A stretch of 64,000 nucleotides of DNA from an uncultured Dehalococcoidia bacterium (GCA_958296105.1 OY282441.1:2129800-2193799); one strand, 5' to 3'. Shown: positions 5,210 to 61,485, counted from the first letter of the stretch. Translations and numbers: made by a program. The notes: generated from the letters alone by a model not told the origin.

Positions 5210-8200
5210 TTGTTCGCCGCGCTTCTCGGCCTCATCGCCGTCGGCGCGGGCGTATCGCGGCTGGCAGTCTCCGGCGTCATCATCTACCGCGTGCTTACCG
5301 GCCAAGCCAGCTTCTCCGCGCTTGCGACTCCTCTGCTCGTCATCGCAGGCCTGATAGTCGTTCGAAGCCTCTTCCAGTATTGGCAGAACGCCTTCAGCCA
5401 CCACACCGCCAACGTTGTCAAGATCGCCCTTCGCAGGCGGCTGTACGCCCACTCCCTGGAGCTTGGCCCCGCCTACTTCGACCGCAACCGCACGGGCGAC
5501 GTGACGCTCACGATGGTCGAAGGCATCGAGAGGCTGGAGACCTTCTTCGGACAGTACCTGTCCCAGATCATCGTCTCCGCCGTCGCGCCTGTCGCCATCT
5601 TCATATACATGGCTTCCCTCGATCTGGTCATCGCCTTGGTCTTTCTGCTGTTCGCCTTCCTGACCCTTGCCGTACCCGCTATGTTCCACAGCTGGAACAA
5701 GCTGAGCAGCTTCCGGCGGCGCGAGTCTTACGGCGAGCTTGGAGCGGACTTCCTCGACAGCGTGCAGGGTCTGCCGACTCTCAAGGCGTTCGGACAGGGG
5801 AAGATTCGCGGCGCGGCGCTGGCGGAGCGCGCTAGGCATCTCTACCGCAGCACCATGGGAGTGGTCGCAGCCAACGGAGCCACCAGCGGCGCATCCATCT
5901 TCTTCATGGCGGCGGGCGCGGCGGCGGCCCTCGCGCTGGGCGCGGCGCGGGTCGGCAGCGGCGACATGGAGCTGCGACCGCTGCTGATAGTCCTCATGCT
6001 CGGCGTAGAGGTGTTCAGACCCATGCGCGAGCTGACCAACCTGTACCATCAGGGGATGACCGTCCTGTCCTCCGCCCAGAGCGTATTCGGCATGATGGAC
6101 GAACCCGCGAGCATACGCGATCCCGAACGGCCGGCGGCGCTGTCCGAAGACGCCGCCCGCGTCCGCGCCGAAGTGGTGTTCGAGGAAGTGTCTTTCGGAT
6201 ACGACGGCGGCAGCCGCCCCGCGCTTCGGGATATCTCTTTCGAGCTTCGACAAGGGGAGACGCTCGGAGTCGCAGGCCCGAGCGGAGCGGGCAAATCGAC
6301 CCTCGTCTGGCTGATGTACCGCTTCTACGACCCTCAGCGCGGGACAGTGCGACTGGGAGGCCACGACGTCCGCGATCTGCCCATCGAGGCGCTCAGAAGC
6401 AGCATCTCGGTGGTCACGCAGGACACGTACCTGTTTCACGGAAGCGTAGCCGACAACCTGCGATTTGGAAAGCCAGACGCCAGCCGACGCGAGATCGAGG
6501 CAGCCGCCCGCGCCGCCAACGCCCACGACTTCATCTCCGCGCTCCCGCGCGGGTACGATACTGTGGTGGGCGAGCGCGCCGTGAGGCTGTCCGGCGGACA
6601 GCGGCAGCGAGTAGCCATAGCTCGCGCCCTGCTGAAGGACGCGCCCATCCTCGTATTGGACGAGGCTCTATCCAGCGTGGACGCCGAGAACGAGGCAGCC
6701 ATACAGCAGGCGCTGGATCGGCTCATGGAAGGGCGAACGACCCTCGTCATCGCGCATAGGCTGTCGAGCATCGTCAGCGCGGACCGCATCTTGGTTCTCG
6801 ACGATGGCAGCCTCGCCGAAATAGGAAGCCATTCTGAGCTTATCGCCCAGAATGGCGTGTACTCCGAGCTGATGCGCCAGCAGACGGAGACGGGCGCGGC
6901 TATACCTTTGCTCCTCGCCCCCGATCATGGACATCGCCACATCCATTCAGTCCGCGCATCCGAGCCGCATCTTGCCGCTGGCAGCCACGACCACGCCCCT
7001 CCAGCGCGCTCCCGCGCCGCCGACCAAGACGCGGATATCCGTTCACTGTCGGTGTGGGCGCGGCTGTTCGGACTCGTCCGCCCGGTGAAATTCCAATTCT
7101 TGTTCACGCTGGCGCTTGGCATCCTCCATCACAGCTCCGTCATCGTGTTGGGCGCGGTGAGCGCGCTGCTCGTCGCCGCCGTGTTCCGAGGAGACGATCT
7201 GACCGCGCCCATCGTACTGGTGGCAGTGTTCGCCCCTCTGTCGGCGCTTCTCTTCTTCCTCGAATCGTGGCAGGCTCACGATATGGCGTATCGGCTGCTC
7301 GCCAGTATGCGCAGCGACCTCTACGACATGCTCGAGCCGCTTGCGCCCGCCTACATGGTGCGCCGACGCTCCGGAGACCTCGTTAGCGTAGTTGGCGGAG
7401 ACGTAGAGACTGTCGAATACTTCTTCGCCCACGCCATATCCCCGATGATCGTTGCCGTGCTGGTGCCGGGCGGCCTCCTAATCGCGCTCGCGTTCGTCTC
7501 ATGGCCCATCGCCGCGGTTCTACTGCCGTTCTTGGTAGCGGTGGCTGCCAGCCCGTTCTTCGCCAACTCCCGCGCCGAGAGGCTTGGCGCAGAGATACGA
7601 GGCCGCATGGGAGACATACACGCATTCATGGTCGACAGCATTCAGGGAATGCGCGAGATCTCCGCATTCGGCAGAGGCGCAGACAGGAACGACGATCTGG
7701 AACGTCGCGGCTGGGAGTACGCCGCCCATCTGGTGCGCTTCCAGAAGTCGCAGGCTTTTCAGATAGGGTTCATAGAAGCCATGATGGGGCTTGGAGGGCT
7801 GGCGGTGCTGGCTATGGGCGTGTGGCTGGTTCTCGAAGGCCAGTTCGTCCGCGCCCAGCTGCCGCTCGTAAGCGTTCTTGCGCTGTCGGCTTTCAGCCCC
7901 GTCACGGAGCTGGCGCGCACCATGAAGCAGCTTATGGAAACCTTGGCCGCCTCGCGCCGCATCCTCGCCGTCCACGACGAGCCGGTGCCGGTGCGCGACG
8001 GCCCGGGCGTACAGACCTCGCCCGCTCTCGCCTCCGCCGAGACGCGCGCGCCGTCCATCAGATTCCGCAGCGTGTCCTTCGCGTACTCGGAGAGCGACCC
8101 CGAGGCGCTGAGAGGCGTGTCGTTCCACATAGGTTCGGGGCAGACGGTGGCGCTAGTTGGAAGGTCCGGCGCGGGCAAGACCACCTGCGCCTACCTAGCC

Positions 8201-8809
8201 ATGAGGTTCTGGGACCCCGGAAGCGGCAGGGTGGAGCTTGGAGATCGCCCGCTGACCGACTTCGCGCTCGAAGACCTGCGAGGGCGCATCTCTCTGGTCG
8301 CCCAGGACACCTACCTGTTCAACGACTCCATACGCGAGAACATCCGACTCGGAAGGCACGGCGCGAGCGACGACGAAGTTCAGGAGGCGGCGAGGCAGGC
8401 CAACGCGCACGAGTTCATCACATCGTTTCCGGACGGCTACGATACTCTGGTCGGAGAGCGCGGGATGCAGCTGTCCGGAGGACAGAGGCAGCGCGTCTCC
8501 ATCGCTCGCGCCATCCTGAAGAACGCCCCCGTCCTCATCTTGGACGAGGCCACCTCCCATCTGGACGCCGTTAGCGAAGCCACAGTCCGCGAGGCGCTGG
8601 ACAGGCTCATGGAGGGCAGAACCACTCTGGTAATCGCCCACCGCCTCTCCACCGTCAGGGACGCCGACAACATCCTTGCGCTGGACGATGGCGTTCTGGT
8701 GGAGCAGGGCGCGCACGAGCAGCTGATAGCGAGCGGCGGCTTGTACGCCCAGCTCACAGCCGCCCAGATGGTCGCCGCCAGCCACGACCGAGCTCCAGAC
8801 AGCCCGTAG
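5210..8809 (+). CDS. Single-chain tandem ABC exporter (two TMD-NBD halves fused, CydDC-like), His-rich linker
   Basis: 1199 residues, two complete half-transporters in one chain. Half 1: six-helix membrane domain, Walker A GPSGAGKST (~356), signature LSGGQRQR (~460), Walker B LVLDEALSSVD, H-loop IAHRLSSI. Half 2: Walker A GRSGAGKTT (~984), LSGGQRQR (~1086), LILDEATSHLD, IAHRLSTV. Both ATP sites keep the catalytic Glu. The linker (~571-600) carries seven His, including DHGHRHIH and GSHDH. CydDC, which exports glutathione/cysteine for cytochrome bd assembly, is the nearest known architecture, but no cyd genes are seen and metal-related export is possible from context. The start is doubtful: in-frame sequence upstream of TTG 5210 (YFDWRLFALTKGVRL) looks like a genuine N-terminus; see findings. 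Confidence 0.82.
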   Translation: MFAALLGLIAVGAGVSRLAVSGVIIYRVLTGQASFSALATPLLVIAGLIVVRSLFQYWQNAFSHHTANVVKIALRRRLYAHSLELGPAYFDRNRTGDVTLTMVEGIERLETFFGQYLSQIIVSAVAPVAIFIYMASLDLVIALVFLLFAFLTLAVPAMFHSWNKLSSFRRRESYGELGADFLDSVQGLPTLKAFGQGKIRGAALAERARHLYRSTMGVVAANGATSGASIFFMAAGAAAALALGAARVGSGDMELRPLLIVLMLGVEVFRPMRELTNLYHQGMTVLSSAQSVFGMMDEPASIRDPERPAALSEDAARVRAEVVFEEVSFGYDGGSRPALRDISFELRQGETLGVAGPSGAGKSTLVWLMYRFYDPQRGTVRLGGHDVRDLPIEALRSSISVVTQDTYLFHGSVADNLRFGKPDASRREIEAAARAANAHDFISALPRGYDTVVGERAVRLSGGQRQRVAIARALLKDAPILVLDEALSSVDAENEAAIQQALDRLMEGRTTLVIAHRLSSIVSADRILVLDDGSLAEIGSHSELIAQNGVYSELMRQQTETGAAIPLLLAPDHGHRHIHSVRASEPHLAAGSHDHAPPARSRAADQDADIRSLSVWARLFGLVRPVKFQFLFTLALGILHHSSVIVLGAVSALLVAAVFRGDDLTAPIVLVAVFAPLSALLFFLESWQAHDMAYRLLASMRSDLYDMLEPLAPAYMVRRRSGDLVSVVGGDVETVEYFFAHAISPMIVAVLVPGGLLIALAFVSWPIAAVLLPFLVAVAASPFFANSRAERLGAEIRGRMGDIHAFMVDSIQGMREISAFGRGADRNDDLERRGWEYAAHLVRFQKSQAFQIGFIEAMMGLGGLAVLAMGVWLVLEGQFVRAQLPLVSVLALSAFSPVTELARTMKQLMETLAASRRILAVHDEPVPVRDGPGVQTSPALASAETRAPSIRFRSVSFAYSESDPEALRGVSFHIGSGQTVALVGRSGAGKTTCAYLAMRFWDPGSGRVELGDRPLTDFALEDLRGRISLVAQDTYLFNDSIRENIRLGRHGASDDEVQEAARQANAHEFITSFPDGYDTLVGERGMQLSGGQRQRVSIARAILKNAPVLILDEATSHLDAVSEATVREALDRLMEGRTTLVIAHRLSTVRDADNILALDDGVLVEQGAHEQLIASGGLYAQLTAAQMVAASHDRAPDSP

Positions 8810-8867
8810 GCATTGGGGCCTGCCCTGTTCTGCTGCATGGCTGGCTGGTTGGGCAGGAACGAGCGAG

Positions 8868-10721
8868 TTACGGCGCGTTGGCGCCGTTGGTCGAAACCGG
8901 CAGCGGCTCGTCTATGGCGGCGTAGTTCATCTGGTACAGGTGGGCGTACAGACCGTCTCGCGCCATCAGCTGCTCGTGGTTTCCCACTTCCATGACCTCG
9001 CCGAAGTTCAGCACCACTATCTTGTCCGCGCCCCTGATCGTGGATAGCCTGTGCGCTATCACGACTGCGGTCCGACCCTTCAGCAGCTCGGCAAGCGCGC
9101 GCTGGATCAGCAGCTCAGTGTAGCTGTCGATGTTGGCGGTGGCTTCGTCCAGAATCAGGATCTTCGGGTCCGCCACTATCGCGCGCGCGAAGCTGATCAG
9201 CTGTCGCTGCCCTTGACTCAGGTTCATTCCGCGCTCGGCCAGGAACGTGTCGTATCCCTCGTCCAGATCCGTGATGAACTCGTGCGCTCCAACCGCGCGC
9301 GCCGCCTCGATCATCTGCTCGTCGCTCGCCTCCGTGTGGTTGTACTTGATGTTCTCGCGCACCGTACCCGAAAACAGATACGGCTCTTGAAGAACCATGC
9401 TCATCTGCTTCGACAGCGAGCTTCGCACCACGTCGCGCACGTCGTGGCCATCCACCAGCACCGCCCCGCGCCCCTGTTCGACATCGTAGAAGCGCGCCAT
9501 CAGGCTGACGAGCGTGGTCTTGCCCGCGCCGGTCGGCCCGACCACCGCCGCCACCTCGCCGGGCGCGATCCGCAGGCTCACGTCCTTGAGGACGTCCTCG
9601 CCCGGCAGGTAGCTGAAGCTGACGTTCCTGAACTCTACCTCTCCCGAGATCTGCGTGAGCGTCTCGGCATCTTCCGCATCCACCAGATCGGGCTGCCAGT
9701 CGAGCAGGTCGAAGATGCGCGAGCCTGACGCCATCGAGCGCTGAAGCTGCGTGTACATCATCGTCAGGTTGCGGATGGGGTCGAAGAAGCGCTGGATGTA
9801 CAGGATGAAGGCGATCAGCACGCCCACTTCCATCTCGCCGCCGCTTATCATGCGCGCGCCGAAGTACAGCGCCAGCCCGATGGCGACCGCAGTCAGGATG
9901 TCTACCGGGGGCATCAGCCCCGCGCCCAGCCGACCGGTGCGCAGGTTCGCGCTGAGGTGGGTGTGGTTCAGACTGTAGAATCTCTCCATGTTCCGCTCTT
10001 GGCGGTTCATCGCCTGAACCACGCGGACGCCCGTAAGGTTCTGGTTCAGCTCGCCGTTGACTACCGAGATGGTGCGCCGCACCTCCATGAAAGCCCTGCG
10101 CATCAGCGGCTGCCAGACCACCATCGTGACAGCCAAGAGCGGCAGGACGATCATGGTTGTCAGCCCCAGCTGAAGGTCCATCAGCAGAAGCGCTATGACG
10201 ATGCCCACCAAGCCGAGCATCTCGCCCAGCGTCATCACCACCAGCGCGGCGAACTCCTGAAGCTGGCCCACGTCGCCCTGCACCCGCGACATCATGCGCC
10301 CGACCTCCGTCTTGTCGTAGAACGAGACGGACTGCTTCTGGACGTGATGGAACACGTCGCGCCGCAGGTTGTAGAGGATGCCCTGCCCGATCTTCTCCAT
10401 CAAGAACTGCTGGGTGAAGTTCATTACCAAGTTGACGCCTGCGATGGCGACGAACACGCCGAACATCCACGTCAGCCCGACCAGGTCGCCGGACGTTATG
10501 TAGCCGTCTATCGTCGTCCCCACCAGCCACGGAATCGCCACCTGCGTTCCCGTGTAGATGAGCATGGCAGCGGCGGCGATGAACGCGAGGCGCTTGAACG
10601 GCCATATGTACGGCAGCAGCCTCCTCACCACCTTCTGGTCGTAGACCGAGCCGAACATCTCTTCATCCGGGTGTCCGCGCCTCGCGCCTTGACCCCCGAA
10701 CCCGAATCCCCCCATCATCAT
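8868..10721 (-). CDS. ABC exporter half-transporter, canonical subunit of a heterodimer
   Basis: 617 residues: Gly/Arg-rich start, six-helix membrane domain, then an ATPase with Walker A GPTGAGKTT, signature LSQGQRQ, Walker B LILDEATANID and H-loop IAHRLST. The catalytic Glu is present. It lies three bases downstream of a second half-transporter on the same strand; that partner carries an Asp in place of the catalytic Glu. The pair therefore resembles asymmetric multidrug/lipid exporters such as TM287/288 and BmrCD. Substrate unknown. It is convergent with the fused exporter on the + strand, with about 58 bases between. Confidence 0.9.
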   Translation of the reverse strand: MMMGGFGFGGQGARRGHPDEEMFGSVYDQKVVRRLLPYIWPFKRLAFIAAAAMLIYTGTQVAIPWLVGTTIDGYITSGDLVGLTWMFGVFVAIAGVNLVMNFTQQFLMEKIGQGILYNLRRDVFHHVQKQSVSFYDKTEVGRMMSRVQGDVGQLQEFAALVVMTLGEMLGLVGIVIALLLMDLQLGLTTMIVLPLLAVTMVVWQPLMRRAFMEVRRTISVVNGELNQNLTGVRVVQAMNRQERNMERFYSLNHTHLSANLRTGRLGAGLMPPVDILTAVAIGLALYFGARMISGGEMEVGVLIAFILYIQRFFDPIRNLTMMYTQLQRSMASGSRIFDLLDWQPDLVDAEDAETLTQISGEVEFRNVSFSYLPGEDVLKDVSLRIAPGEVAAVVGPTGAGKTTLVSLMARFYDVEQGRGAVLVDGHDVRDVVRSSLSKQMSMVLQEPYLFSGTVRENIKYNHTEASDEQMIEAARAVGAHEFITDLDEGYDTFLAERGMNLSQGQRQLISFARAIVADPKILILDEATANIDSYTELLIQRALAELLKGRTAVVIAHRLSTIRGADKIVVLNFGEVMEVGNHEQLMARDGLYAHLYQMNYAAIDEPLPVSTNGANAP

Positions 10722-51139: not shown

Positions 51140-51274
51140 ATCAGAATCTCCATGAACATGCCTGTTGCTGGAATCTACTACTGTGGGCTGAAGCGTGAAA
51201 TTTTTCTAGCTAATATTTGGAACGATTAGGAGACAGTGCGGCTCGATCCGTGGATGTGTGCTACATTTATGGGG

Positions 51275-52474
51275 ATGAGCAGCCTCGAGTTTGACCGTCT
51301 GATCGAATCGCAGTCCCGGCTTGCGCTGGGAGCGCCGACCACGCCCGCTTACGTCTATTCCGAGCAGGCGCTGGAGACTGCCGCCGCGCGCGCCGCCTCC
51401 ATCGCCTCGGATGCAGGCTGCAAGCTGCTGTACACCCTGAAGTCCTGCGCCCTGTCCCCGGCGCTGGAAACGCTCTCCGCTTGGGTGGAGGGCTTCTCGT
51501 GCAGCTCCACGTTCGAGGCGCGGCTGGCGCGGGAGTCTGCGAGGACGGGGCAGCTCCTTCACTGCTACTCGCCCGCGTTCTCGGATTCGGATATGGCGGA
51601 GGCGCTGTCGATCGTCGATTTTCTGTCGCTCAACTCGTTCGCGCAGCTGGGAAGGGCGCTCGCGCTGAGGCGCGGCGAAGCATCTCTCGGAATCAGGCTG
51701 AACCCCGAGATCGGGTTCGCGGACGATGTCCGCTACGACCCGTGCCGCCCCCACTCGAAGCTCGGCGTGCCGCTGTCGCTGTTCGACGCGCTGGCGGAGC
51801 GCTCGCGCTCGGCTGTGAGCATAGACGGCATACACGTTCATAACAACTGCGAGTCGGAAGACCTCGCAGAGCTGGCGCTCACGGTCGAGGCGATGTCGAG
51901 CGCGCTCAGGACGCTGCCGAACCTCAGATGGGTCAACCTCGGAGGGGGCTACTATCTCGGCCCCGACACCGACGCCGCCCCGCTCCGAGAGGCGACGGCT
52001 TGGCTGAAGTCCGAGTACGGCGCGAGCGTGTTCATCGAGCCTGGAACCGCGCTCGTTCAGGAGGCGGGTTTTCTGGTGGCGGAGGCGCTGGACGTGTTCG
52101 AGAACGACGGGGTGGACGTCGCCGTGCTTGACGCTTCCACCAGTCACGCGCCGGAGGTGTTCGAGTACTCATACGCGCCCCGAACGACCCTGTCCACGAT
52201 GAAAGGCGGCCGCAGGACGATACTGGCGGGCCGCTCGTGCCTTGCGGGTGACGTGTTCGGCAGCTACGAGCTCAGCGAGCCGCTGGCGGCGCGCCAGAGG
52301 GTTGGCATGATGGCGGCGGGATCGTACAGCCATTCGAGAGCCGCGCCCTTCAACGGGATACCAGAGCCGCACAGCTACCTGCTGAAGCGAAACGGCACAT
52401 TCGAGCTGGCGTCGGAGTACAGATACGCCGACTTCGCGCGTAGGAACGGAGCCGCCGCCGTTGCGACTTCTTGA
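51275..52474 (+). CDS. Carboxynorspermidine/diaminopimelate decarboxylase-like PLP enzyme (NspC-like)
   Basis: 399 residues from ATG 51275 (ATG 51269 also possible). Fold-type III PLP enzyme: AYVYSEQALE near the start, LLYTLKSC with the PLP Lys (~55), GLRLN-like GIRLNPEIGF, DGIHVHNNCES, WVNLGGGYYLG, FIEPGTALVQEAGF and SCLAGDVFGSYE with the catalytic Cys. The last motif and NNCES are closest to NspC, which makes norspermidine. An extended -10 (TGTGCTACATTT) sits just before the start, suggesting a leaderless or very short leader. It is the first gene of a four-gene operon with DUF3326, an adenylate-forming enzyme and a SecA-like ATPase. True substrate unknown. Confidence 0.8.
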   Translation: MSSLEFDRLIESQSRLALGAPTTPAYVYSEQALETAAARAASIASDAGCKLLYTLKSCALSPALETLSAWVEGFSCSSTFEARLARESARTGQLLHCYSPAFSDSDMAEALSIVDFLSLNSFAQLGRALALRRGEASLGIRLNPEIGFADDVRYDPCRPHSKLGVPLSLFDALAERSRSAVSIDGIHVHNNCESEDLAELALTVEAMSSALRTLPNLRWVNLGGGYYLGPDTDAAPLREATAWLKSEYGASVFIEPGTALVQEAGFLVAEALDVFENDGVDVAVLDASTSHAPEVFEYSYAPRTTLSTMKGGRRTILAGRSCLAGDVFGSYELSEPLAARQRVGMMAAGSYSHSRAAPFNGIPEPHSYLLKRNGTFELASEYRYADFARRNGAAAVATS

Positions 52475-53780
52475 GCGCTCAGCCCAAATCGTTCACGCGC
52501 CCGCGCAAACGCCCCTGCTGGACTCTCTGGAGCGCGGGATCGACGACGTCCTGCCGCAGGGACACACGCCCGTTCGTCTGGCGGTCACCAGCTCGGCGAA
52601 CGGCGTCTACGAGTGCGAGATTGGGGTTATCGAAGGCGAGACCCCCTACACCGCATCCCCGCTGTTCGGATTCAGGCGTCGGGAGTTCGAGTCCCAGTCC
52701 GAGTTCAACGTGGTCTTCGTCGTGCCAACCGGCATCGGAGCCGAGATAGGCGGTCACGCCGGAGACGCCACGCCCGCCGCCATTCTGATGGCGCAGGTCG
52801 CCGACACGCTCATAACCCACCCGAACGTGGTGAACGCCTCGGACATAAACGAGCTTCCCGCCAACGGAATGTACGTAGAGGGAAGCGTGCTGTCGCGGCT
52901 GATGATGGGAACCGTCGGTCTGCGAGCCGCGAGGTCGAACAGGGTGTTGGTGGCTCTGGATATGAGCTGCACCGAACGGTTCGCCAAGTATTCGATGAAC
53001 GCCGTGAACGCGGCGCGCTCGACGTATGGCATGAGCTGCGCGGGCATCGTCAGGATAGATCCCCCGCTGCGGCTTGTCGGCGCGTACACTGCCGCCGGGC
53101 GCGCATCCGGCACGGTCGAAGGGGTGTCTGGCTTGCTGAGGCTGCTGACCGACCTGCGCGACTCCTACGACGCGGTGGCTCTCGCTTCCGTTGTGGATGT
53201 GCCTTTGCGCTATCACTACGAATATTTCACGAGCGGCGGCGAGATGGTCAACCCCTGGGGAGGAGTGGAGGCGCTGCTCACTCATGCGGTCTCCTCGATC
53301 CTCGACGTGCCTGCCGCGCACGCGCCTATGATGGAGTCCGACGACATCTCGGCGGTGGACCCCGGCATCGTGGACGCTCGAATGGCAGCCGAGATCATCT
53401 CGATAACGTTCCTCCAGTCCGTGCTGAAAGGCCTTCAGCGCGCGCCGCGCATCGAGACCGACCAGTCGCGGCTGGAACGCTCGGACGTGCTGAGCGCGGA
53501 GGACGTGTCTTGTCTTGTGATTCCCGACTCATGTCTGGGCTTGCCCACCCTCGCCGCGCTGCATCAGGGGATCAGAGTCGTGGCTGTGCGCGAGAACCGC
53601 AGCCTGATGAGAAACGACCTTGCCAGCCTGCCCTGGGCGTCTGATCAGCTGTACTTCGCCGAGAACTACTGGGAGGCGGCGGGCATCGTCGCCGCGCTGA
53701 GGGCTGGGCTGGACCCCAACTCGGTCAGACGCCCTATATCGACCATGAGGGTGCGGAACAGTGACCGAGTCGATCTCTAG
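52461..53780 (+). CDS. DUF3326-family protein
   Basis: 439 residues from TTG 52461. The core matches DUF3326: VPTGIGAEIGGHAGDATP (~97-114), LITHPNVVNASD, NGMYVEGSVLSRLMMG, then TYGMSCAGIVRIDPPL, WGGVEALLTHAVSS and VIPDSCLGLPTLAAL. Biochemical function is unknown in the family, which occurs mainly in cyanobacteria and plants; a Rossmann-like or nucleotide-binding role is only a guess. It overlaps the upstream PLP enzyme by 14 bases and the downstream gene by 20 bases, so it is tightly coupled. A conserved glycine-rich stretch near the start (GIGAEIGGHAGD) is the likely active or ligand site. Confidence 0.78.
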   Translation: MRLLERSAQIVHAPAQTPLLDSLERGIDDVLPQGHTPVRLAVTSSANGVYECEIGVIEGETPYTASPLFGFRRREFESQSEFNVVFVVPTGIGAEIGGHAGDATPAAILMAQVADTLITHPNVVNASDINELPANGMYVEGSVLSRLMMGTVGLRAARSNRVLVALDMSCTERFAKYSMNAVNAARSTYGMSCAGIVRIDPPLRLVGAYTAAGRASGTVEGVSGLLRLLTDLRDSYDAVALASVVDVPLRYHYEYFTSGGEMVNPWGGVEALLTHAVSSILDVPAAHAPMMESDDISAVDPGIVDARMAAEIISITFLQSVLKGLQRAPRIETDQSRLERSDVLSAEDVSCLVIPDSCLGLPTLAALHQGIRVVAVRENRSLMRNDLASLPWASDQLYFAENYWEAAGIVAALRAGLDPNSVRRPISTMRVRNSDRVDL

Positions 53781-55068
53781 CCCAGCGGCGCGCGCGCGTC
53801 TGCGCTCGCTCGGCGAGGTATCCCGCGAGGAGTCGCGCACGCTTCGCCGCGTGATGCTGCGCTGCTTCGACGGCTTCCCCACGTATGCGCGGATATTCGC
53901 CGAAGCCGGCGTGGACAGGCGCGCGCTGCTGTTCGACGATCCTCTGGCATTGCTGCGGAAACTGCCGCCGATAGGCGCTGACGAGCTGGCAGACATCAGC
54001 TTCGAAGCGCTGGCGACGGACGTCGCGATGGTCGATACCGAGACCTCGTCCGCCACCACCGGCGGAAAGAAGATCCGTTTCATCTCGTACAGAGACGACA
54101 TCGCCGAGCATGAGTTCTTGGCTCGTCTGCTGTCCGTCTGCGGGGTGGGCGAGACGGACAGGGTCGCCTGCGTGGACACCGACCCCGTAGCGGTGATGGT
54201 GTCGTTTCCAAAGGCTTGCGAGCTTCTCGGCGCGGCGGAGTCCTACTGCATCAGCACAGGCGCCGGATTCGCCCGCGCCCTGCCCGTACTCGCTCGGCTG
54301 GAGCCGACCGTCCTGATAAGCGTGCCGTCGATCATCGAGCGTATGCTGGATGCCGCGCCTCCCGGGCGCTTGCCTGCGCTGGAGTCTATTCGGAAGGTCG
54401 TCTGCATTGGCGAGGGGCTGGGCGAGGGGCTGAGAGCTAGGATCCAGTCAGGCTTTGGGGCGGAGGCGTTCTCCTACTACGGATCGAGCGAAACCTCCGC
54501 GCTCGGCATCGAATGCCCCGCGCATGATGGGATACACCTGTTCCGCTCGCGCCATATCTTCGAGCTGGAGGACTCGGACTCCGAGGACTGCCGTCTGGTC
54601 GTCACGACTCTGATGCAGGAGGGGCTGCCGCTGCTGAGGTACAGGCTGGGCGACGTGGTGAGAGTATGTGGCGGCTCGTGCGCCTGCGCGCTGGACGAGC
54701 CGAGAGTGGACGTGATCGGTCGCTCGGAGATGATGGCTTCGATACTCGGCTCCAAGATCCACCACAAGGCGATTCACGACACGATCCAGCGAATCGGCAT
54801 GACAGGCCCCCTGCAAATACTGCTGGATCTGGACGGACAGACTGAGGTCATGCGCCTTCGCGTATCCGAGTCCAACGCGCGGCTGGCAGACAGCGCGATG
54901 GATGCGCTGCTCGGAGATCATGCAGACGTGGAGTTCCTGTTTGCCAGCGGGCTGCTCGACATTCGCTTCGAGATGCTCCCGTCGAGTCGATTGCCGCAAG
55001 AGCGCAAGCCCAACACTCTGGTGGACCTTCGACACGCGCGGGAATGCGCGAGATCGGGGCAGGCATAA
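53761..55068 (+). CDS. PaaK/LuxE-like adenylate-forming enzyme
   Basis: 435 residues from GTG 53761. ANL-type motifs: TSSATTGGKKIRF (phosphate loop; usual SSGTTG has Gly, here Ala), YYGSSETSALGIEC (~242), LLRYRLGDVVRVCG (~300) and VIGRSEMMASILGSK (~322). A Lys near the end (LPQERKPNTLVDLR) fits the acceptor-domain lysine. Nearest are phenylacetate-CoA ligase and LuxE-type acyl-protein synthetases, so it probably activates a carboxylic acid as an adenylate; acceptor (CoA, protein, amine) unknown. No CoA-specific features can be read off. Overlaps DUF3326 and ends four bases before the SecA-like gene. Confidence 0.8.
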   Translation: MTESISSPAARARLRSLGEVSREESRTLRRVMLRCFDGFPTYARIFAEAGVDRRALLFDDPLALLRKLPPIGADELADISFEALATDVAMVDTETSSATTGGKKIRFISYRDDIAEHEFLARLLSVCGVGETDRVACVDTDPVAVMVSFPKACELLGAAESYCISTGAGFARALPVLARLEPTVLISVPSIIERMLDAAPPGRLPALESIRKVVCIGEGLGEGLRARIQSGFGAEAFSYYGSSETSALGIECPAHDGIHLFRSRHIFELEDSDSEDCRLVVTTLMQEGLPLLRYRLGDVVRVCGGSCACALDEPRVDVIGRSEMMASILGSKIHHKAIHDTIQRIGMTGPLQILLDLDGQTEVMRLRVSESNARLADSAMDALLGDHADVEFLFASGLLDIRFEMLPSSRLPQERKPNTLVDLRHARECARSGQA

Positions 55069-55072
55069 GCCC

Positions 55073-58000
55073 ATGCTCGGATTTTCAGGGAAGACGAAAC
55101 CCGCTCGCAGCCTACGCGATGCAATGGCGCTTGCCGCGCGCGCCAGAGCGATGAATCTGGACACTCTCGACGACCCTGAGCTGGACCTTCGACTGTGGAC
55201 GGTGGCGGCTGAAGCCTGCGAGAGATCGGCGGACGCCGCGATGTCCACCGCTTTGGGACTGGTGGACGCTGCCGTGAGGCGGCGTCTGGGCATATGGAAG
55301 GCGGTTCTTTCCGATTCCGCTGATCTGACTGGCGAGATCAGGATGTTGCGAGAGATGGCAGACGACCTGCTGGCGGCATTCTTGCATTCCCGACCGCTCG
55401 GAAGCGATGGGCGGGAGTGGACGCGCCGCATCCCTGCGCTGGCGGACGCTGCCGCCGTCGGTGGCGGCAGCCGCGAAGCCCTGCGCTGGCTGCTGACGGT
55501 TCGGGCAAGGCTGGCGACCGAGCGCCCGTCGGAAATCCCGCTGCCGTCCGACTTCTACCGCTCCATCGAAGCGGTGGACGATGGGCGCTGCTTGGTGTTC
55601 CAGCCCACCCAGCGCCAGCTTGCCGCCGCAGCGCTGCTGATAGACGGCGCCATAGTCGAGATGGACGCCGGCGAGGGGAAGTCGCTCACGGCGGGAATGG
55701 CAGCGGCGATTCTAGCCGCGTCCGGGCGAAGCGTACACGTCCTGACAGCCAACGACTACCTCGCCGCCCGCGACTGCGAAGACCTCGCCCCCGTGCTGGA
55801 ATCGCTCGGCGTCACGCTCGGACTGATCACCGACAACATGGACAGATACGAACGGCTGCACCAGTACACCCGCCGGGTGGTGTTCACTACGGCCAGGGAG
55901 GTGGGCTTCGATTACCTGCGCGACAGCGTGGCGCGCTCCATGGTAGATCGGGTGAACCCGGTGTTCGACGTGGCGATCGTGGACGAGGCGGACCACCTGC
56001 TGATAGACCAAGCGCGAGTGCCGCTGATCATATCGGGAGACCCCTCCCCCGAGTCCGTGATGGGGGTGGAGTGCGAGAGCGTGGCGGTGGAGCTGATCGA
56101 GGAGCAGGCGCGGCGCGTGGATGAGATGTACGATGCGCTTGCGAGCGCCGTCGGCGGATCGCGCGATGCGCGCCTGCATCTGGCGAAGATACTGTTGGCT
56201 GGCGGTCTGTCTGGCAGGCTGATCTCGGCGCTGGAGATGCACGGCGTCTCCGCGCGCGAGTCGTTCGCGGACATGGCGCGAATGAACGACGACGAAGATG
56301 GCCGCCCCCTCGAACGAGACCTGCTGTTCACCGTCGATCCGCGCGCGCCCTCTCTGATGCTGACGGACGAGGGCTGGGATGTGGTGGCTCGCCGCTTGGA
56401 GCATCAGGCGATGGCGTTCGAGGTGGTTCAGATGCTGCGGGCAAGGGTGGTTCACGAAGCCGACGAGGATTACGTGGTGGCAGAAGGCGGCATAACGCTG
56501 GTCGATCAGCTCGACGGCAGACCGATGTACGCGCACAGATACATGGGCGGGCTGCAAGAGGCGCTCGAAGCGAAGGAGGGAATCGAGGGGCGCGGATGGG
56601 CGGACACCAAAGCGCGGACGACGATCCACGCGCTGATGTCCCGCTACTCCGCCATCTCCGGCCTTACGGGAACAGCCCAAGAGTCGGCTGACATATTCGC
56701 CAGCGACTTCCGAGCGCCGGTTGTCAGGGTTCGCCCCGAGACCGAATCCAAGCGCGTCGATCTGGCCCCCGTCGTGTTCTTCGACCGCGCCGAACATATC
56801 CGATGCGTTGCCGAAGAGGTGGCGAAGTGGCATCGAGTCGGAAGGCCCGTGCTGCTGAGCGTGGGGAGTGTCAGCGACTCGTCCACGTTCAGCGACGAGC
56901 TGACTTCGCGGGGAGTGTCTCACCGCGTGCTGAGCGCCTCCAACCCGTTTCACGAAACGGAGATCGTGGCTGGCGCGGGCAGATTCGGAGCGGTCACGGT
57001 ATCGACCGGAATGGCGGGGCGCGGCACGGACATCATCGTCGGGCGCGAGACCGACTCGCGCACAGTGTCCGCCTTCGTGGACGAGGCAGCGCGCCGCATC
57101 CGAAGAGGGCAGAGACTGATCTTCAGGAGCGACTCGCCCGAACAGGCGTCCATCTTGGAGGCGGCGATGGCAGAGGCTGCGGACGCGGACACGAGCCGCG
57201 CAGGTACGCAGGTCGTCGTCAAAAGGCGTGGCTGGCAATCCGAGACTACTGTAAGGCTGGACTTCGGGCTGGGCTTGATCGTCGTCATCGCCTCCCTGCC
57301 CGCTTCCGTCCGCGTGGAGCGCCAGATCAGGGGACGCACCGCCAGACAGGGCAGCTTCGGGGCGACCAAGACGATGGCGCGCGTCAACGACCCCGTCATA
57401 GCGTTCTCCAGACAGCAGAGCGCGCTGATGGACTTGAAGCGACCCGCGGCGACCCACGCCGGAGGCGCTGAGGTGGAAAGGCTGCTGCGCCAAATTCAGA
57501 TAGAGGCGGAGACTCAGCGCCGCGCAGCCGCTGGGGTCAGCGCGGAGCTGGCGGCGATCATCGAGGCGGAATGCCGCGCCCACTACGCCGCGCGCGAGCG
57601 GCTGATGCACGGCGCAAGAGCGTCGGCTTGGCTGGCAGTACTCGTCGCCGACTGGGTGGAGCGCGTGACTGCAACGCTGGACGACGCGAGCGTCGGCTAC
57701 GCGGAGAGATTCGATTCGGTCGCCGACTCGCTCTGGGACGAATGGGGCATCGACGTCGGCGCGAGCGCGGGACTCGCGCCCCCCGAAGTGCGCGAGACTC
57801 TGAGCGACGAGGTGAACAGACGACTGTTTCGCCACCGAGACAGGCTCGGAGCGCGTCGGCTTGGCTGCGTCCTCGCCGAGATGTATCTGGACGCCGTGGA
57901 TGCGCTGTGGCCCGACCGCCTGATGGAGCTTCAGGACATGGCGCTGTCGGTGACGCTGGGCGCGCATTCGCGCAGAGCGGCGTTCGCGCAGCTTTCCGAG

Positions 58001-58144
58001 CAGATCGAAGAATCTCGCCCCGCATTCTGGCGCAGGGCGGACGATATGGCGCTGGGATGCCTTCTAGTCGTTGAATCGTATGGCGATATGGGCGACAATC
58101 AGATTGAGCGGCTGCCCTCGAATCTGTCGGCGCTGCTCGACTGA
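55073..58144 (+). CDS. Divergent accessory SecA-type ATPase (SecA2-like)
   Basis: 1023 residues. SecA hallmarks: MDAGEGKSLTAGMA (Walker A), VHVLTANDYLAARD, VGFDYLRDSVARSM, IVDEADHLLIDQARVPLIISG (DEAD box), ISGLTGTAQES, STGMAGRGTDIIVG and RQIRGRTARQGSFG (arginine region). The preprotein-binding insertion and helical wing/scaffold parts (DALWPDRLMELQDM) are visible. The N-terminal ~150 residues are unlike canonical SecA, and the C-terminal zinc-binding Cys tail is missing. All catalytic motifs are intact but altered in places (TARQG for AGRQG), so an active ATPase that recognises special substrates is likely. Last of four coupled genes; a secreted Ser-rich protein follows at 58223. Confidence 0.83.
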   Translation: MLGFSGKTKPARSLRDAMALAARARAMNLDTLDDPELDLRLWTVAAEACERSADAAMSTALGLVDAAVRRRLGIWKAVLSDSADLTGEIRMLREMADDLLAAFLHSRPLGSDGREWTRRIPALADAAAVGGGSREALRWLLTVRARLATERPSEIPLPSDFYRSIEAVDDGRCLVFQPTQRQLAAAALLIDGAIVEMDAGEGKSLTAGMAAAILAASGRSVHVLTANDYLAARDCEDLAPVLESLGVTLGLITDNMDRYERLHQYTRRVVFTTAREVGFDYLRDSVARSMVDRVNPVFDVAIVDEADHLLIDQARVPLIISGDPSPESVMGVECESVAVELIEEQARRVDEMYDALASAVGGSRDARLHLAKILLAGGLSGRLISALEMHGVSARESFADMARMNDDEDGRPLERDLLFTVDPRAPSLMLTDEGWDVVARRLEHQAMAFEVVQMLRARVVHEADEDYVVAEGGITLVDQLDGRPMYAHRYMGGLQEALEAKEGIEGRGWADTKARTTIHALMSRYSAISGLTGTAQESADIFASDFRAPVVRVRPETESKRVDLAPVVFFDRAEHIRCVAEEVAKWHRVGRPVLLSVGSVSDSSTFSDELTSRGVSHRVLSASNPFHETEIVAGAGRFGAVTVSTGMAGRGTDIIVGRETDSRTVSAFVDEAARRIRRGQRLIFRSDSPEQASILEAAMAEAADADTSRAGTQVVVKRRGWQSETTVRLDFGLGLIVVIASLPASVRVERQIRGRTARQGSFGATKTMARVNDPVIAFSRQQSALMDLKRPAATHAGGAEVERLLRQIQIEAETQRRAAAGVSAELAAIIEAECRAHYAARERLMHGARASAWLAVLVADWVERVTATLDDASVGYAERFDSVADSLWDEWGIDVGASAGLAPPEVRETLSDEVNRRLFRHRDRLGARRLGCVLAEMYLDAVDALWPDRLMELQDMALSVTLGAHSRRAAFAQLSEQIEESRPAFWRRADDMALGCLLVVESYGDMGDNQIERLPSNLSALLD

Positions 58145-58222: not shown

Positions 58223-59050
58223 ATGAGAGCGAAAAGAGCGAGTAGATCTACGATGGCGGCGCTGGCTGGCGTCTCGCTGCTGGCAGCGCCCGTGGCCGCC
58301 GCTTGCAGCTCCGAGCCGACCTACGAGGAGTGGGCGGCGACGGACGGCGCGGCGGGCAGAATCAATTTGGACGAGGTTCAGGATGCGTTCAAGAAGTCCA
58401 GCAGCGCGACTGAGTTCGAGGAGCGGGTCAACGAGATATACGAGGGCGACGGAATCATCCTCGTTCGCGTGGATCAGGACGGCGACAGGCTCACGCTGGA
58501 AGGCTGGGAAGACCTCGACAAATCCAAGCAGATCGAGGACGGCTCGGATGACCTCCTCTTCTCCATAGTCCAGAACAACGAACAGCACGAGATGCGCGGC
58601 TACGGCGCGAACGGCTACTATCACAGCTCGTTCGGCGCGGGAGACTTCCTGTTTACCTACATGCTGCTCAGCGCGTTCAATCCCATAGGCGGACGCTACT
58701 ACTACTCGACGCCCATAAACCGCTACGACTCTATCAGCCGCAGCCGCGCGCAGTACCGGAACTCGAACGCCTACCAGAGTCAGGTCGGCAAGAACACCAG
58801 CTACTTCAGCAGACAGAAGTCGTTCGCCGGCTCCAGCTACGACCAAGCGGCTAGGAACGTCAGCTCATCGCGCCAGACCTACCTCAGCTCCCAGCGCTCG
58901 ACGGGGTCGTTCAGGTCGAGCGCAACCGGTGTGCGCTCCAGCTGGGGAAGCAGCAGCCGAAGCAGCACGCTCGGACGCTCGACCTCCGGGTTCACCGGCG
59001 GCGGCGGATCCGCGCGGCTGATCGGCTTTCGGAGGAGAAGCCTCGACTGA
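58223..59050 (+). CDS. Secreted or lipid-anchored protein with Ser/Tyr/Arg-rich tail
   Basis: 275 residues. Signal sequence (ALAGVSLLAAPVAAACSSEP) with a weak lipobox AAAC. The middle part (~35-125) is acidic and folded-looking: VDQDGDRLTLEGWEDLDKSK, NNEQHEMRGYGANGYYHSS. The C-terminal ~130 residues are low complexity in Ser, Tyr, Arg and Gly (SSRQTYLSSQRSTGSFRSS, SWGSSSRSSTLGRSTSGFTG). No domain recognised; it resembles by context the secreted partner of DUF350/DUF4178 clusters. It is 78 bases after the SecA-like gene on the same strand, and convergent with the DUF350 gene. Possible export client of the SecA-like protein. Confidence 0.7.
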   Translation: MRAKRASRSTMAALAGVSLLAAPVAAACSSEPTYEEWAATDGAAGRINLDEVQDAFKKSSSATEFEERVNEIYEGDGIILVRVDQDGDRLTLEGWEDLDKSKQIEDGSDDLLFSIVQNNEQHEMRGYGANGYYHSSFGAGDFLFTYMLLSAFNPIGGRYYYSTPINRYDSISRSRAQYRNSNAYQSQVGKNTSYFSRQKSFAGSSYDQAARNVSSSRQTYLSSQRSTGSFRSSATGVRSSWGSSSRSSTLGRSTSGFTGGGGSARLIGFRRRSLD

Positions 59051-59102: not shown

Positions 59103-59990
59103 TCAGATGGCGAAGAACAGGATCAGGCTGATGCCAATTAGCGCCGAGCTTTCTATGAAGGCGGCGCCCAGGTTGCGGTCCACCGTCAGCTCGTCAGCCA
59201 GCTTGACGTGTGGAAACAGCACCCTGTCCACCACGAACCTCATCACGTACAGCAGGACGAAGCCGAGTACGGCGTAGGTTGCGAATCCGGCGATGCTGTC
59301 CGCCCATCCCGTGAACTCGCCGAAGACCGCCTTGAACACCACTATGCCTATGGCGATCAGGTTGCCCCCGAGCGCGACGCCCACGGCGACGTTGTCACTC
59401 TCGATCTGCTCGTGGATGCTGTACGGAGTCGTCCACTCATAGACCAGCGTATAGACTATGAGGGCGACCAGCCCCAGCCCGAGGAACGCCAGCGCCGTCT
59501 CCGGCCCGCCGCTGTCTCCCGATATCGCGCCCGCGATGACCAGCCCGACCGCCACGTAGACGGCGAACTCCACCGCGCCCGTTCCGGCGTTGTGATCGTT
59601 GATTATCTCGTCCTCGGTTCTGAAATCGTGAAGCACCAGCTTGTCCACGATTACCCGCGCGATGTTGAGAACTGCGATGCCGACTATCGAATATCCGAAC
59701 ACCAGCCCGACCTCGCGCCAGTATTCGGCGGTGAACCCCAGATTGTCGTCGGCTATTACCAAGAACGGCTGGTACAGACCGCCTAGGAACACCAGAATCA
59801 CGCCCAGGTAGTAGCCCGATATGCTCACCGCCAGAGCGACGTTGTCCTTATGGTTCAGCTGCTCCTGAATGCGATACGGCGTGATCAGGTCCTGCGCCAG
59901 CCTTGCGATGGCGAGGACGACCACGCCCATGACCACGTACACGAGGCCGCGCGGTATCTGCTCGAACACGTTTATGAATGACTCGATCAT
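59103..59990 (-). CDS. Tandem DUF350 membrane protein
   Basis: 295 residues with about eight hydrophobic helices, two DUF350-like halves. Each half has a helical pair with acidic and amide residues: YRIQEQLNHKDNVALAVSISGYYLG in the first and YSIHEQIESDNVAVGVALGGNLIAIG in the second. Internal duplication is clear from these matching stretches. Members are inner-membrane proteins of unknown function that sit with DUF4178 and phage-shock-like genes in other bacteria. The DUF4178 gene is immediately upstream (16 bases). Confidence 0.8.
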   Translation of the reverse strand: MIESFINVFEQIPRGLVYVVMGVVVLAIARLAQDLITPYRIQEQLNHKDNVALAVSISGYYLGVILVFLGGLYQPFLVIADDNLGFTAEYWREVGLVFGYSIVGIAVLNIARVIVDKLVLHDFRTEDEIINDHNAGTGAVEFAVYVAVGLVIAGAISGDSGGPETALAFLGLGLVALIVYTLVYEWTTPYSIHEQIESDNVAVGVALGGNLIAIGIVVFKAVFGEFTGWADSIAGFATYAVLGFVLLYVMRFVVDRVLFPHVKLADELTVDRNLGAAFIESSALIGISLILFFAI

Positions 59991-60006: not shown

Positions 60007-60576
60007 CTACTTGTGATACACGGTAACCAGATGTGGCGAGACAGCCGCCGAAGCGTACACCTCGAACGGCAGACCCTCCCACTTTACCACCGTTATACTG
60101 CCTTCGTCGTCCTCCCTGTGGAACTCCCAGCTGTAGAATCCCTCCCCTTCCCTGTCGTCTCCCTTGAAGTACATGGTCTCGCAGCTGTTCCGATAGTAGT
60201 ACGTGTGACCTTCGTACTCGATGCTGTTTTCCAGAGACTTGAAGTCGTCCCACTGCACGAGCGTATCGTAGTCGAGTCCGACGGAGGATAGCCCCATTGG
60301 CCTGTCCTGACAGGTTATCGAGATGTGAAGCCCGTCGTGGTCCGACCACTCGATCGTGGCGCGGCGCTCCCCGTCTTCGCCCACTATCTCCCGCGACTCC
60401 CCAAAGGCAGACTCCAGACGGCTGATCTGCTCCACTATCAGGTAGGCGTCCTCGCCGGTGTCCCACAGCCCGGGAATGAACACCACGTCCCCGACCCGCG
60501 CCGAGCGGATGGAGTCGTCGGCGGGCGCGGATGCCGCCCTCTTCTTCTTGCGTCTTCCAAACAGTGCGTTCAACAT
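60007..60576 (-). CDS. DUF4178-family protein
   Basis: 189 residues. A basic N-terminus (NALFGRRKKKRAAS) precedes the DUF4178-type domain: SIRSARVGDVVFIPG, EWSDHDGLHISITCQD, TYYYRNSCETMYFKGDD and the conserved GEGFYSWEFHREDDEGSITVVKW near the end. Function unknown; in other genomes DUF4178 sits with DUF350 membrane proteins and polyamine aminopropyltransferase-like genes. The paired DUF350 gene follows at 16 bases, so the two are one operon. It is a cytoplasmic or membrane-peripheral protein. Confidence 0.78.
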   Translation of the reverse strand: MLNALFGRRKKKRAASAPADDSIRSARVGDVVFIPGLWDTGEDAYLIVEQISRLESAFGESREIVGEDGERRATIEWSDHDGLHISITCQDRPMGLSSVGLDYDTLVQWDDFKSLENSIEYEGHTYYYRNSCETMYFKGDDREGEGFYSWEFHREDDEGSITVVKWEGLPFEVYASAAVSPHLVTVYHK

Positions 60577-60934: not shown

Positions 60935-61010
60935 GGCGCATTCGTCTAGGGGTCTAGGATACCACCCTTTCAAGGTGGAGACACGGGTTCGAGTCCCGTA
61001 TGCGCTACCA
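60935..61010 (+). tRNA. tRNA-Glu (TTC), 76 nt, CCA encoded
   Basis: Acceptor GGCGCAT (60935-60941) pairs with ATGCGCT (61000-61006), one G-U pair; discriminator A, then CCA. Anticodon loop CTTTCAA with stem CCACC/GGTGG gives TTC. Confidence 0.94.
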
Positions 61011-61040
61011 ACGCCCCCGCCCAGATCCCCCTTGATTACA

Positions 61041-61272
61041 GGACGCTTGACAGCCTAGACACGCAGCCATACCCGCGAACATGCGGATACCGCCTCTCCC
61101 CCTCGGCCACAGTGCGCTTGGCGGCATAGAACACGCAGCCACACCCGCGAACATGCGGATACCGCCTCTCCCCCTCGGCCACAGTGCGCTTGGCGGCATA
61201 GAACACGCAGCCATACCCGCGAACATGCGGATACCGCCTCTCCCCTTGTACACGGGGCGTTTGGCGGGGTGT
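61041..61272. repeat. Tandem 72-bp repeat, three copies with degenerate flanks
   Basis: Copies start at 61059, 61131 and 61203 (ACACGCAGCCA) and are near identical until about 61254; partial degraded copies lie on both sides. Each unit contains CCGC-GAACAT-GCGG, a small palindrome. The region lies between the tRNAs and a transporter operon, in a 475-base stretch (61011-61485) without any other supported gene. Confidence 0.9.
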
Positions 61273-61485
61273 ACGAACCCGAACCCAGCGGCGACAAACG
61301 CCGGGTGCGCAGCCTGCGTTCGAGCGGCATATTGACACCCCTTCGGATGCGCTGTATTATCCGATTTGCGGATTATGACTATCATGCCCCCCAATCCATC
61401 GACTGGATGGGCGGCTTGCGATCTGACTCTCGGCATAGTTTGGACTGCGACACCGATTTGGACCGAACTGGTGAGGAGACGACAA

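Follow-up and report, generated by a model that had tools for sequence, protein, structure and literature searches.

Within a 64,000-nucleotide stretch of an uncultured Dehalococcoidia genome (GCA_958296105.1 OY282441.1:2129800-2193799; hereafter the window), four consecutive genes encode an NspC-like pyridoxal phosphate (PLP) decarboxylase, a DUF3326 protein, a PaaK/LuxE-like ligase, and a divergent SecA-family ATPase. They are two joined modules, an NspC-like/DUF3326 pair and a Chloroflexota SecA module, and the divergent SecA is co-inherited with a protein of the arylamine N-acetyltransferase (NAT) fold, a DUF350 membrane protein, and PspA. Tentatively, and with a confidence somewhat short of even, we assign the locus to the polyamine-linked envelope operons around PspA, YjfL/DUF350, and DUF4178, as a Chloroflexota variant in which PaaK and NAT would supply an amide-forming arm and the divergent SecA a motor. 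The four genes are:

51275-52474, + strand: NspC-like PLP decarboxylase, 399 aa; ATG start; Pfam and NCBIfam matches
52461-53780, + strand: DUF3326 protein, 439 aa; TTG start; PF11805, E=1.3e-92
53761-55068, + strand: PaaK/LuxE-like adenylate-forming ligase, 435 aa; GTG start; AMP-binding, E=1e-9
55073-58144, + strand: divergent SecA-family ATPase, 1023 aa; ATG start; SecA_DEAD, P-loop_SecA, SecA_PP_bind

The module around SecA was followed through 60 relatives, 17 of which encode the divergent SecA (200-270 bits) and 43 of which do not. These genomes are partly incomplete, gene starts in them follow simple open reading frame (ORF) rules, and SecA fragments at contig ends in one genome (G015) were left out of the count; as the relatives are not independent, counts were repeated by family. 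The NAT-fold protein is present in 16 of the 17 genomes with the divergent SecA and in none of the 43 others (by-family p 9e-8), DUF350 in 16/17 versus 2/43 (p 4e-6), PspA in 17/17 versus 7/43 (p 3e-5), and DUF3326 in 11/17 versus 0/43 (p 1e-3). The sole genome lacking DUF350 (G042) has a contig that stops at SecA. Across wider samples, 4 of 393 genomes of the class and 2 of 400 of the phylum carried the NAT. Because the NAT gene lies 1.15 Mb from the locus in the window's own genome, its coupling to SecA goes beyond mere linkage. That SecA, NAT, and DUF350 are strictly inherited together in nine families argues strongly against a set of chance neighbours, that is, ordinary metabolic genes and a decaying SecA duplicate with no joint function; the invariant catalytic residues of 26 SecA proteins and a fixed 14-nt gene overlap also speak against it. 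Such an assembly would fit the separation of the two modules in many genomes and the lack of DUF3326 in 6 of the 17 SecA-bearing relatives, but we consider it very improbable.

The gene junctions, re-derived here, are as given in an initial annotation of this DNA: the NspC-like and DUF3326 genes overlap by 14 nt, the DUF3326 and PaaK-like genes overlap by 20 nt, and a 4-nt gap separates the PaaK-like gene from SecA. An in-frame GTG at 51236, upstream of the ATG, is a second possible start of the NspC-like gene. The 14-nt overlap is kept in 40 of 55 loci of many phyla, with a 20-nt overlap in 9 more, and because it recurs in this way the coupling that had been proposed is beyond chance. All four genes also occur together in relatives: G001, G004, and G006 keep the order unchanged, and in G003 a 3-kb insert interrupts the set. 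The view of the four as one unit did not survive: the NspC-like/DUF3326 pair is a separate module, widespread without the divergent SecA, and the nearest partners of SecA, namely NAT, DUF350, DUF4178, the lipoprotein, and the K+ channel, lie outside the four genes. Promoter-like and terminator-like sites at the locus are not above their number in shuffles, Rfam matches were tRNAs only, and a PADLOC search with ten proteins gave no anti-phage defence match.

Three neighbours follow SecA in the window:

58223-59050, + strand: putative lipoprotein, 275 aa, Ser-rich tail; no Pfam family; conserved neighbour of SecA in nearly all related loci
59103-59990, - strand: double DUF350 (YjfL-type) membrane protein, 295 aa; PF03994, E=3e-54, two copies; co-inherited with the divergent SecA
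60007-60576, - strand: DUF4178-like protein, 189 aa; PF13785, E=4.5e-4, under the curated cut-off; conserved neighbour

In genomes without DUF3326, the SecA cluster comprises the NAT-fold protein, a short PaaK-like protein, a K+ channel with RCK, PaaK, a GNAT-like protein, a universal stress protein, SecA, the lipoprotein, c10 (a protein without family), DUF350, and DUF4178; membership varies, and not each locus has every gene. A more distant version (NAT, PaaK, SecA, lipoprotein, and c10) is found in G114, a genome of the same class and another order.

The statement that no described system has such a combination proved too strong, since the membrane part is that of the PspA/polyamine operons, which hold DUF350, DUF4178, a lipoprotein or a K+ channel, with SecA unmentioned there (PMC11237479). 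With the second and third groups of these PspA/Yjf operons the locus shares the double DUF350, DUF4178, the lipoprotein and, in relatives, the K+ channel; near it lies a polyamine-type decarboxylase, and the same genomes encode PspA. Those operons have a CesT/Tir-PspA dyad, a spermidine synthase-TM (transmembrane) protein or an ATP-grasp ligase, and this locus instead has SecA, the NAT fold, and PaaK. The second-group combination of DUF350 (8-TM type), lipoprotein, and DUF4178 is present, with DUF350 clear and DUF4178 under its cut-off; the putative lipoprotein is conserved, which does not imply that it equates with the Ctha_1186 domain. The other second-group trait, the CesT/Tir-PspA dyad with spermidine synthase-TM, is absent from the operon, and PspA and spermidine synthase are encoded elsewhere in the genome. 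One genome of the same order without the divergent SecA (G022) carries DUF2170-PspA-spermidine synthase-DUF350. It is because of this arrangement and the shared membrane part that we place the locus among the PspA/polyamine operons, and an envelope role is suggested by analogy with them. Our literature search returned nothing joining SecA with DUF4178, nor SecA with carboxynorspermidine decarboxylase and a gene cluster; a SecA-like domain considered as a related case (PMC3482391) was set aside as unrelated, since it belongs to Amoebophilus effectors.

The divergent protein is a SecA superfamily ATPase, with NBD1, PPXD, and NBD2, Walker A and B, and motif VI (Pfam SecA_DEAD 8e-63, P-loop_SecA 6e-33, SecA_PP_bind 3e-13). 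The Walker A Lys, Walker B Asp-Glu, and motif VI Arg and Gln are kept in 26/26 divergent SecAs (the Walker A Thr is Ser in one row), and residues of the PPXD, the substrate clamp, are conserved. Scores stay below cut-off both for the housekeeping SecA equivalog (390 bits, cut-off 800) and for the SecA2 equivalog models (331, 330, 311, and 264 bits, cut-offs 725-1100). In a tree built with a short search, the 26 proteins form one clade (SH-aLRT 100, stem of 1.44 changes per site), and the Chloroflexota housekeeping SecAs form a clade elsewhere; this answers the question, raised earlier, of whether this SecA stands separate. A Planctomycetes second SecA (L184) had joined the divergent clade in the first tree on a long branch; its locus carries M50/HlyD genes, and on that ground we took it for a further paralogue and kept it out of the second tree. 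G793, a Planctomycetes genome, encodes a short second SecA (L210; frame of ~668 aa) that adjoins M50 peptidase/HlyD-type genes and seems to be a separate paralogue with partners of its own.

The window's own genome holds three SecA_DEAD loci, namely a housekeeping gene (949 aa), a truncated tandem copy, and the divergent gene, which is thus not the sole SecA. The truncated copy, near-identical to the 5' part of the housekeeping secA, precedes it (L025:4698-6410 and 6191-9037; C1 ~344,700-349,040) with short repeats at the junction and would be either a recent duplication or an assembly artefact. Inserts in the divergent protein amount to ~100 residues before NBD1, ~50-80 at the NBD1/PPXD junction, and ~40 in NBD2. 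The first separates NBD1 from a SecA N-terminal segment that is weakly recognisable (148 residues versus 47 in E. coli, positions 40-86) and accounts for the N-terminus that had seemed unfamiliar. The zinc tail is missing, as had been remarked: the divergent SecA has no Cys motif of the kind seen at the end of the genome's housekeeping SecA, CPCGSGKKYKRCCGA. The two-helix-finger loop of SecA enters the funnel of SecY (PMC6599042); in the divergent clade the signature of this loop, GIxLxxYxQ[KR][DN]P, is lost, with Tyr794 kept in 4/26, Q796 in 1/26, and P799 in 0/26; housekeeping rows retain them. The segment in the window is:

57940-57985, + strand: segment aligned with the two-helix-finger loop, signature lost; E. 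coli RQGIHLRGYAQKDP, here ALSVTLGAHSRRAA

The finger proline, and sometimes the tyrosine, are also lost in SecA2 proteins with SecY2 (PMC7503281), and because of this the change is no proof of lost translocation. The SecA2 systems of Gram-positives likewise have an extra SecA beside the housekeeping one, without a zinc tail; this locus differs in scoring far under all SecA2 cut-offs and in its other partner genes, and the genome encodes one SecY only and no SecY2. The finger likeness, the conserved ATPase motor and PPXD, and a lipoprotein beside SecA in nearly all loci would suit a dedicated accessory Sec export line like SecA2, in which SecA exports the Ser-rich lipoprotein, PaaK, NAT, and GNAT-like enzymes acylate it before or during export, and the polyamine link is incidental. 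This is a serious alternative but an unlikely one: the single SecY argues against a SecY2-type system, the score stays under the cut-off of every SecA2 model, and DUF350, DUF4178, and the K+ channel would be left unexplained. Conversely, the SecA-derived ATPase might no longer translocate and might act as a membrane-remodelling or clamp motor in place of the PspA/CesT-Tir dyad of related operons. The finger-loop signature is lost in 26/26 proteins, long inserts lie ahead of NBD1 and within NBD2, and operons of this kind have PspA or the divergent SecA, never both; PspA is nevertheless encoded elsewhere in 17/17 SecA-bearing genomes, and so is not replaced at the genome level, and the PPXD, which binds the substrate polypeptide, is conserved. 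We regard this as quite unlikely.

SecA is usually regarded as a single-purpose motor, with SecA2 the usual exception, and we know of no earlier case of a SecA drawn into a polyamine/PSP-type envelope system. Inheritance of an extra SecA with acid-activating, amide-forming, and envelope-stress proteins suggests, from sequence comparison, a motor put to a new job at the membrane. It is possible, although we doubt it more than we believe it, that this is a further accessory-SecA lineage, distinct from SecA2 and without SecY2, serving as the ATP motor of an acid-activating/amide-forming envelope system, with a reworked finger that gives a new way of moving a dedicated polypeptide or remodelling the membrane. 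A deep, catalytically intact SecA clade tied to the NAT fold, DUF350, and PspA would be the first such recruitment known to us, and would tell the SecA parts needed for translocation (the finger) from those needed for ATP-driven clamping.

Judged from intact folds and residues, the PaaK-like, NAT-fold, and NspC-like enzymes fit a route in which an acid is activated and an amide then formed. The PaaK-like protein matches PaaK structures (E=8e-19) and shares their adenylation motifs, which are conserved (n=20); it differs in reaching 61 bits against the PaaK equivalog TIGR02155 (cut-off 646) and in having no phenylacetate genes noted near the locus. The AlphaFold2 model of the NAT-fold protein (pLDDT 85) was compared by VIA (Z 12.6, rmsd 5.3, 260 residues): arylamine N-acetyltransferases fill the top rows, and the amide synthase GdmF was also matched. 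With arylamine N-acetyltransferases and GdmF-type amide synthases it shares the fold, the Cys-His-Asp triad (Cys227, His284, and Asp299, invariant in 18/18 sequences), and the His-to-Asp spacing of 15 residues; it differs in its length of ~465 aa, an extra N-terminal part of ~140 residues, and a weak Pfam NAT match (E=0.04). A first assignment as a transglutaminase was dropped, as structure ranks NATs higher (Z 12.6 versus 8.5). This co-inherited fold with its invariant triad, together with the intact catalytic residues of decarboxylase and ligase, lends support to the earlier suggestion that some target receives an acyl or amine unit. Short PaaK-like proteins (~280 aa, no Pfam match) adjoin the NAT gene at L124:8540-9385, L126:11073-11882, and L127:8486-9358 and look like degenerate PaaK relatives.

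In the mechanism that we propose, PaaK would activate an acid, which NAT would take onto its cysteine and hand to an amine; where present, the NspC/DUF3326 pair would make or mature that amine. The amide, or its formation, would report on or adjust a membrane complex of DUF350, K+ channel, and lipoprotein, and the SecA-derived motor, driven by ATP, would thread a dedicated polypeptide at the inner membrane via the one SecYEG of the genome. We are surer of the envelope setting and the amide-forming chemistry than of the rest of this proposal, and least sure of the motor substrate; most simply this would be the Ser-rich lipoprotein encoded beside SecA, which is our first candidate and a guess. 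Several points weigh against placing the locus with the PspA/polyamine operons in this way. The enzymes are without known substrates, the DUF4178 match is under its cut-off, and PaaK is absent from some SecA-bearing loci. PspA is unlinked to SecA in the SecA-bearing genomes, making the association one by genome only, and no conserved PspA neighbourhood was found across them. A lipoprotein is encoded in PspA operons that have no SecA as well (PMC11237479). Finally, the altered finger loop speaks against canonical translocation, and the divergent SecA could be a protein that does not translocate at all.

The NspC-like/DUF3326 module has a distribution of its own. A scan for DUF3326 with one genome per species (84,980 species) gave 80 loci (L026-L105), a set selected by DUF3326 and hence blind to SecA without it, cases of which appear in the separate scans of relatives. 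Beside DUF3326 stands an NspC-like PLP decarboxylase in 47 loci and an AdoMetDC in 29 (76/80 in total), never both (0/80), and the four loci with neither all lie at contig ends. Such clean non-orthologous replacement may offer a way to the function of DUF3326, which occurs in Synechococcus and is seldom named in the literature searched; the family gains a firm partner rule of one decarboxylase, NspC-like or AdoMetDC. In Alphaproteobacteria, the NspC/AdoMetDC-DUF3326 pair occurs with a glutathionylspermidine-synthase-like ATP-grasp ligase, PspA, DUF2170, DUF1190, and an ion channel with TrkA-N. Only 18 of the DUF3326 loci carry the divergent SecA, all in records named Chloroflexi, Chloroflexota, SAR202 or Dehalococcoidia. 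At no locus does the divergent SecA accompany the ATP-grasp gene (0 of 25), and 16 DUF3326-bearing genomes of other phyla yielded no SecA in the score range of the divergent clade.

The NspC-like protein (Pfam Orn_Arg_deC_N, 2.5e-6) matches solved carboxynorspermidine decarboxylases (E=2.8e-61, 9eaf). It shares the NspC fold and catalytic residues, with PLP Lys56, His189, GGG, EPG, CxAGD, and Tyr351 invariant (n=55), and differs in staying under the cut-off of the NspC equivalog TIGR01047 (232 bits, cut-off 409), in its tie to DUF3326, and in its exchange for AdoMetDC at other loci. The AlphaFold2 model of DUF3326 (pLDDT 88) returned nothing below E 0.001 in Foldseek; its best VIA match (Z 9.7 over 135 residues) fell among mixed Rossmann-like folds, and no function was inferred from it. 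Outside the operon, ~9 kb past the window end, the same genome has a spermidine synthase adjoining a weak AdoMetDC-like ORF (C1:2,202,513-2,203,700, L225), and because of these two genes ordinary spermidine is probably made without the NspC-like enzyme.

At 61005-61436 of the window, right after tRNA-Gln/Glu/Glu genes, short direct repeats of RGRGGIRMFAGMAACSMPPSALWP-type units are crossed by ORFs on both strands and likely form a non-coding repeat array.

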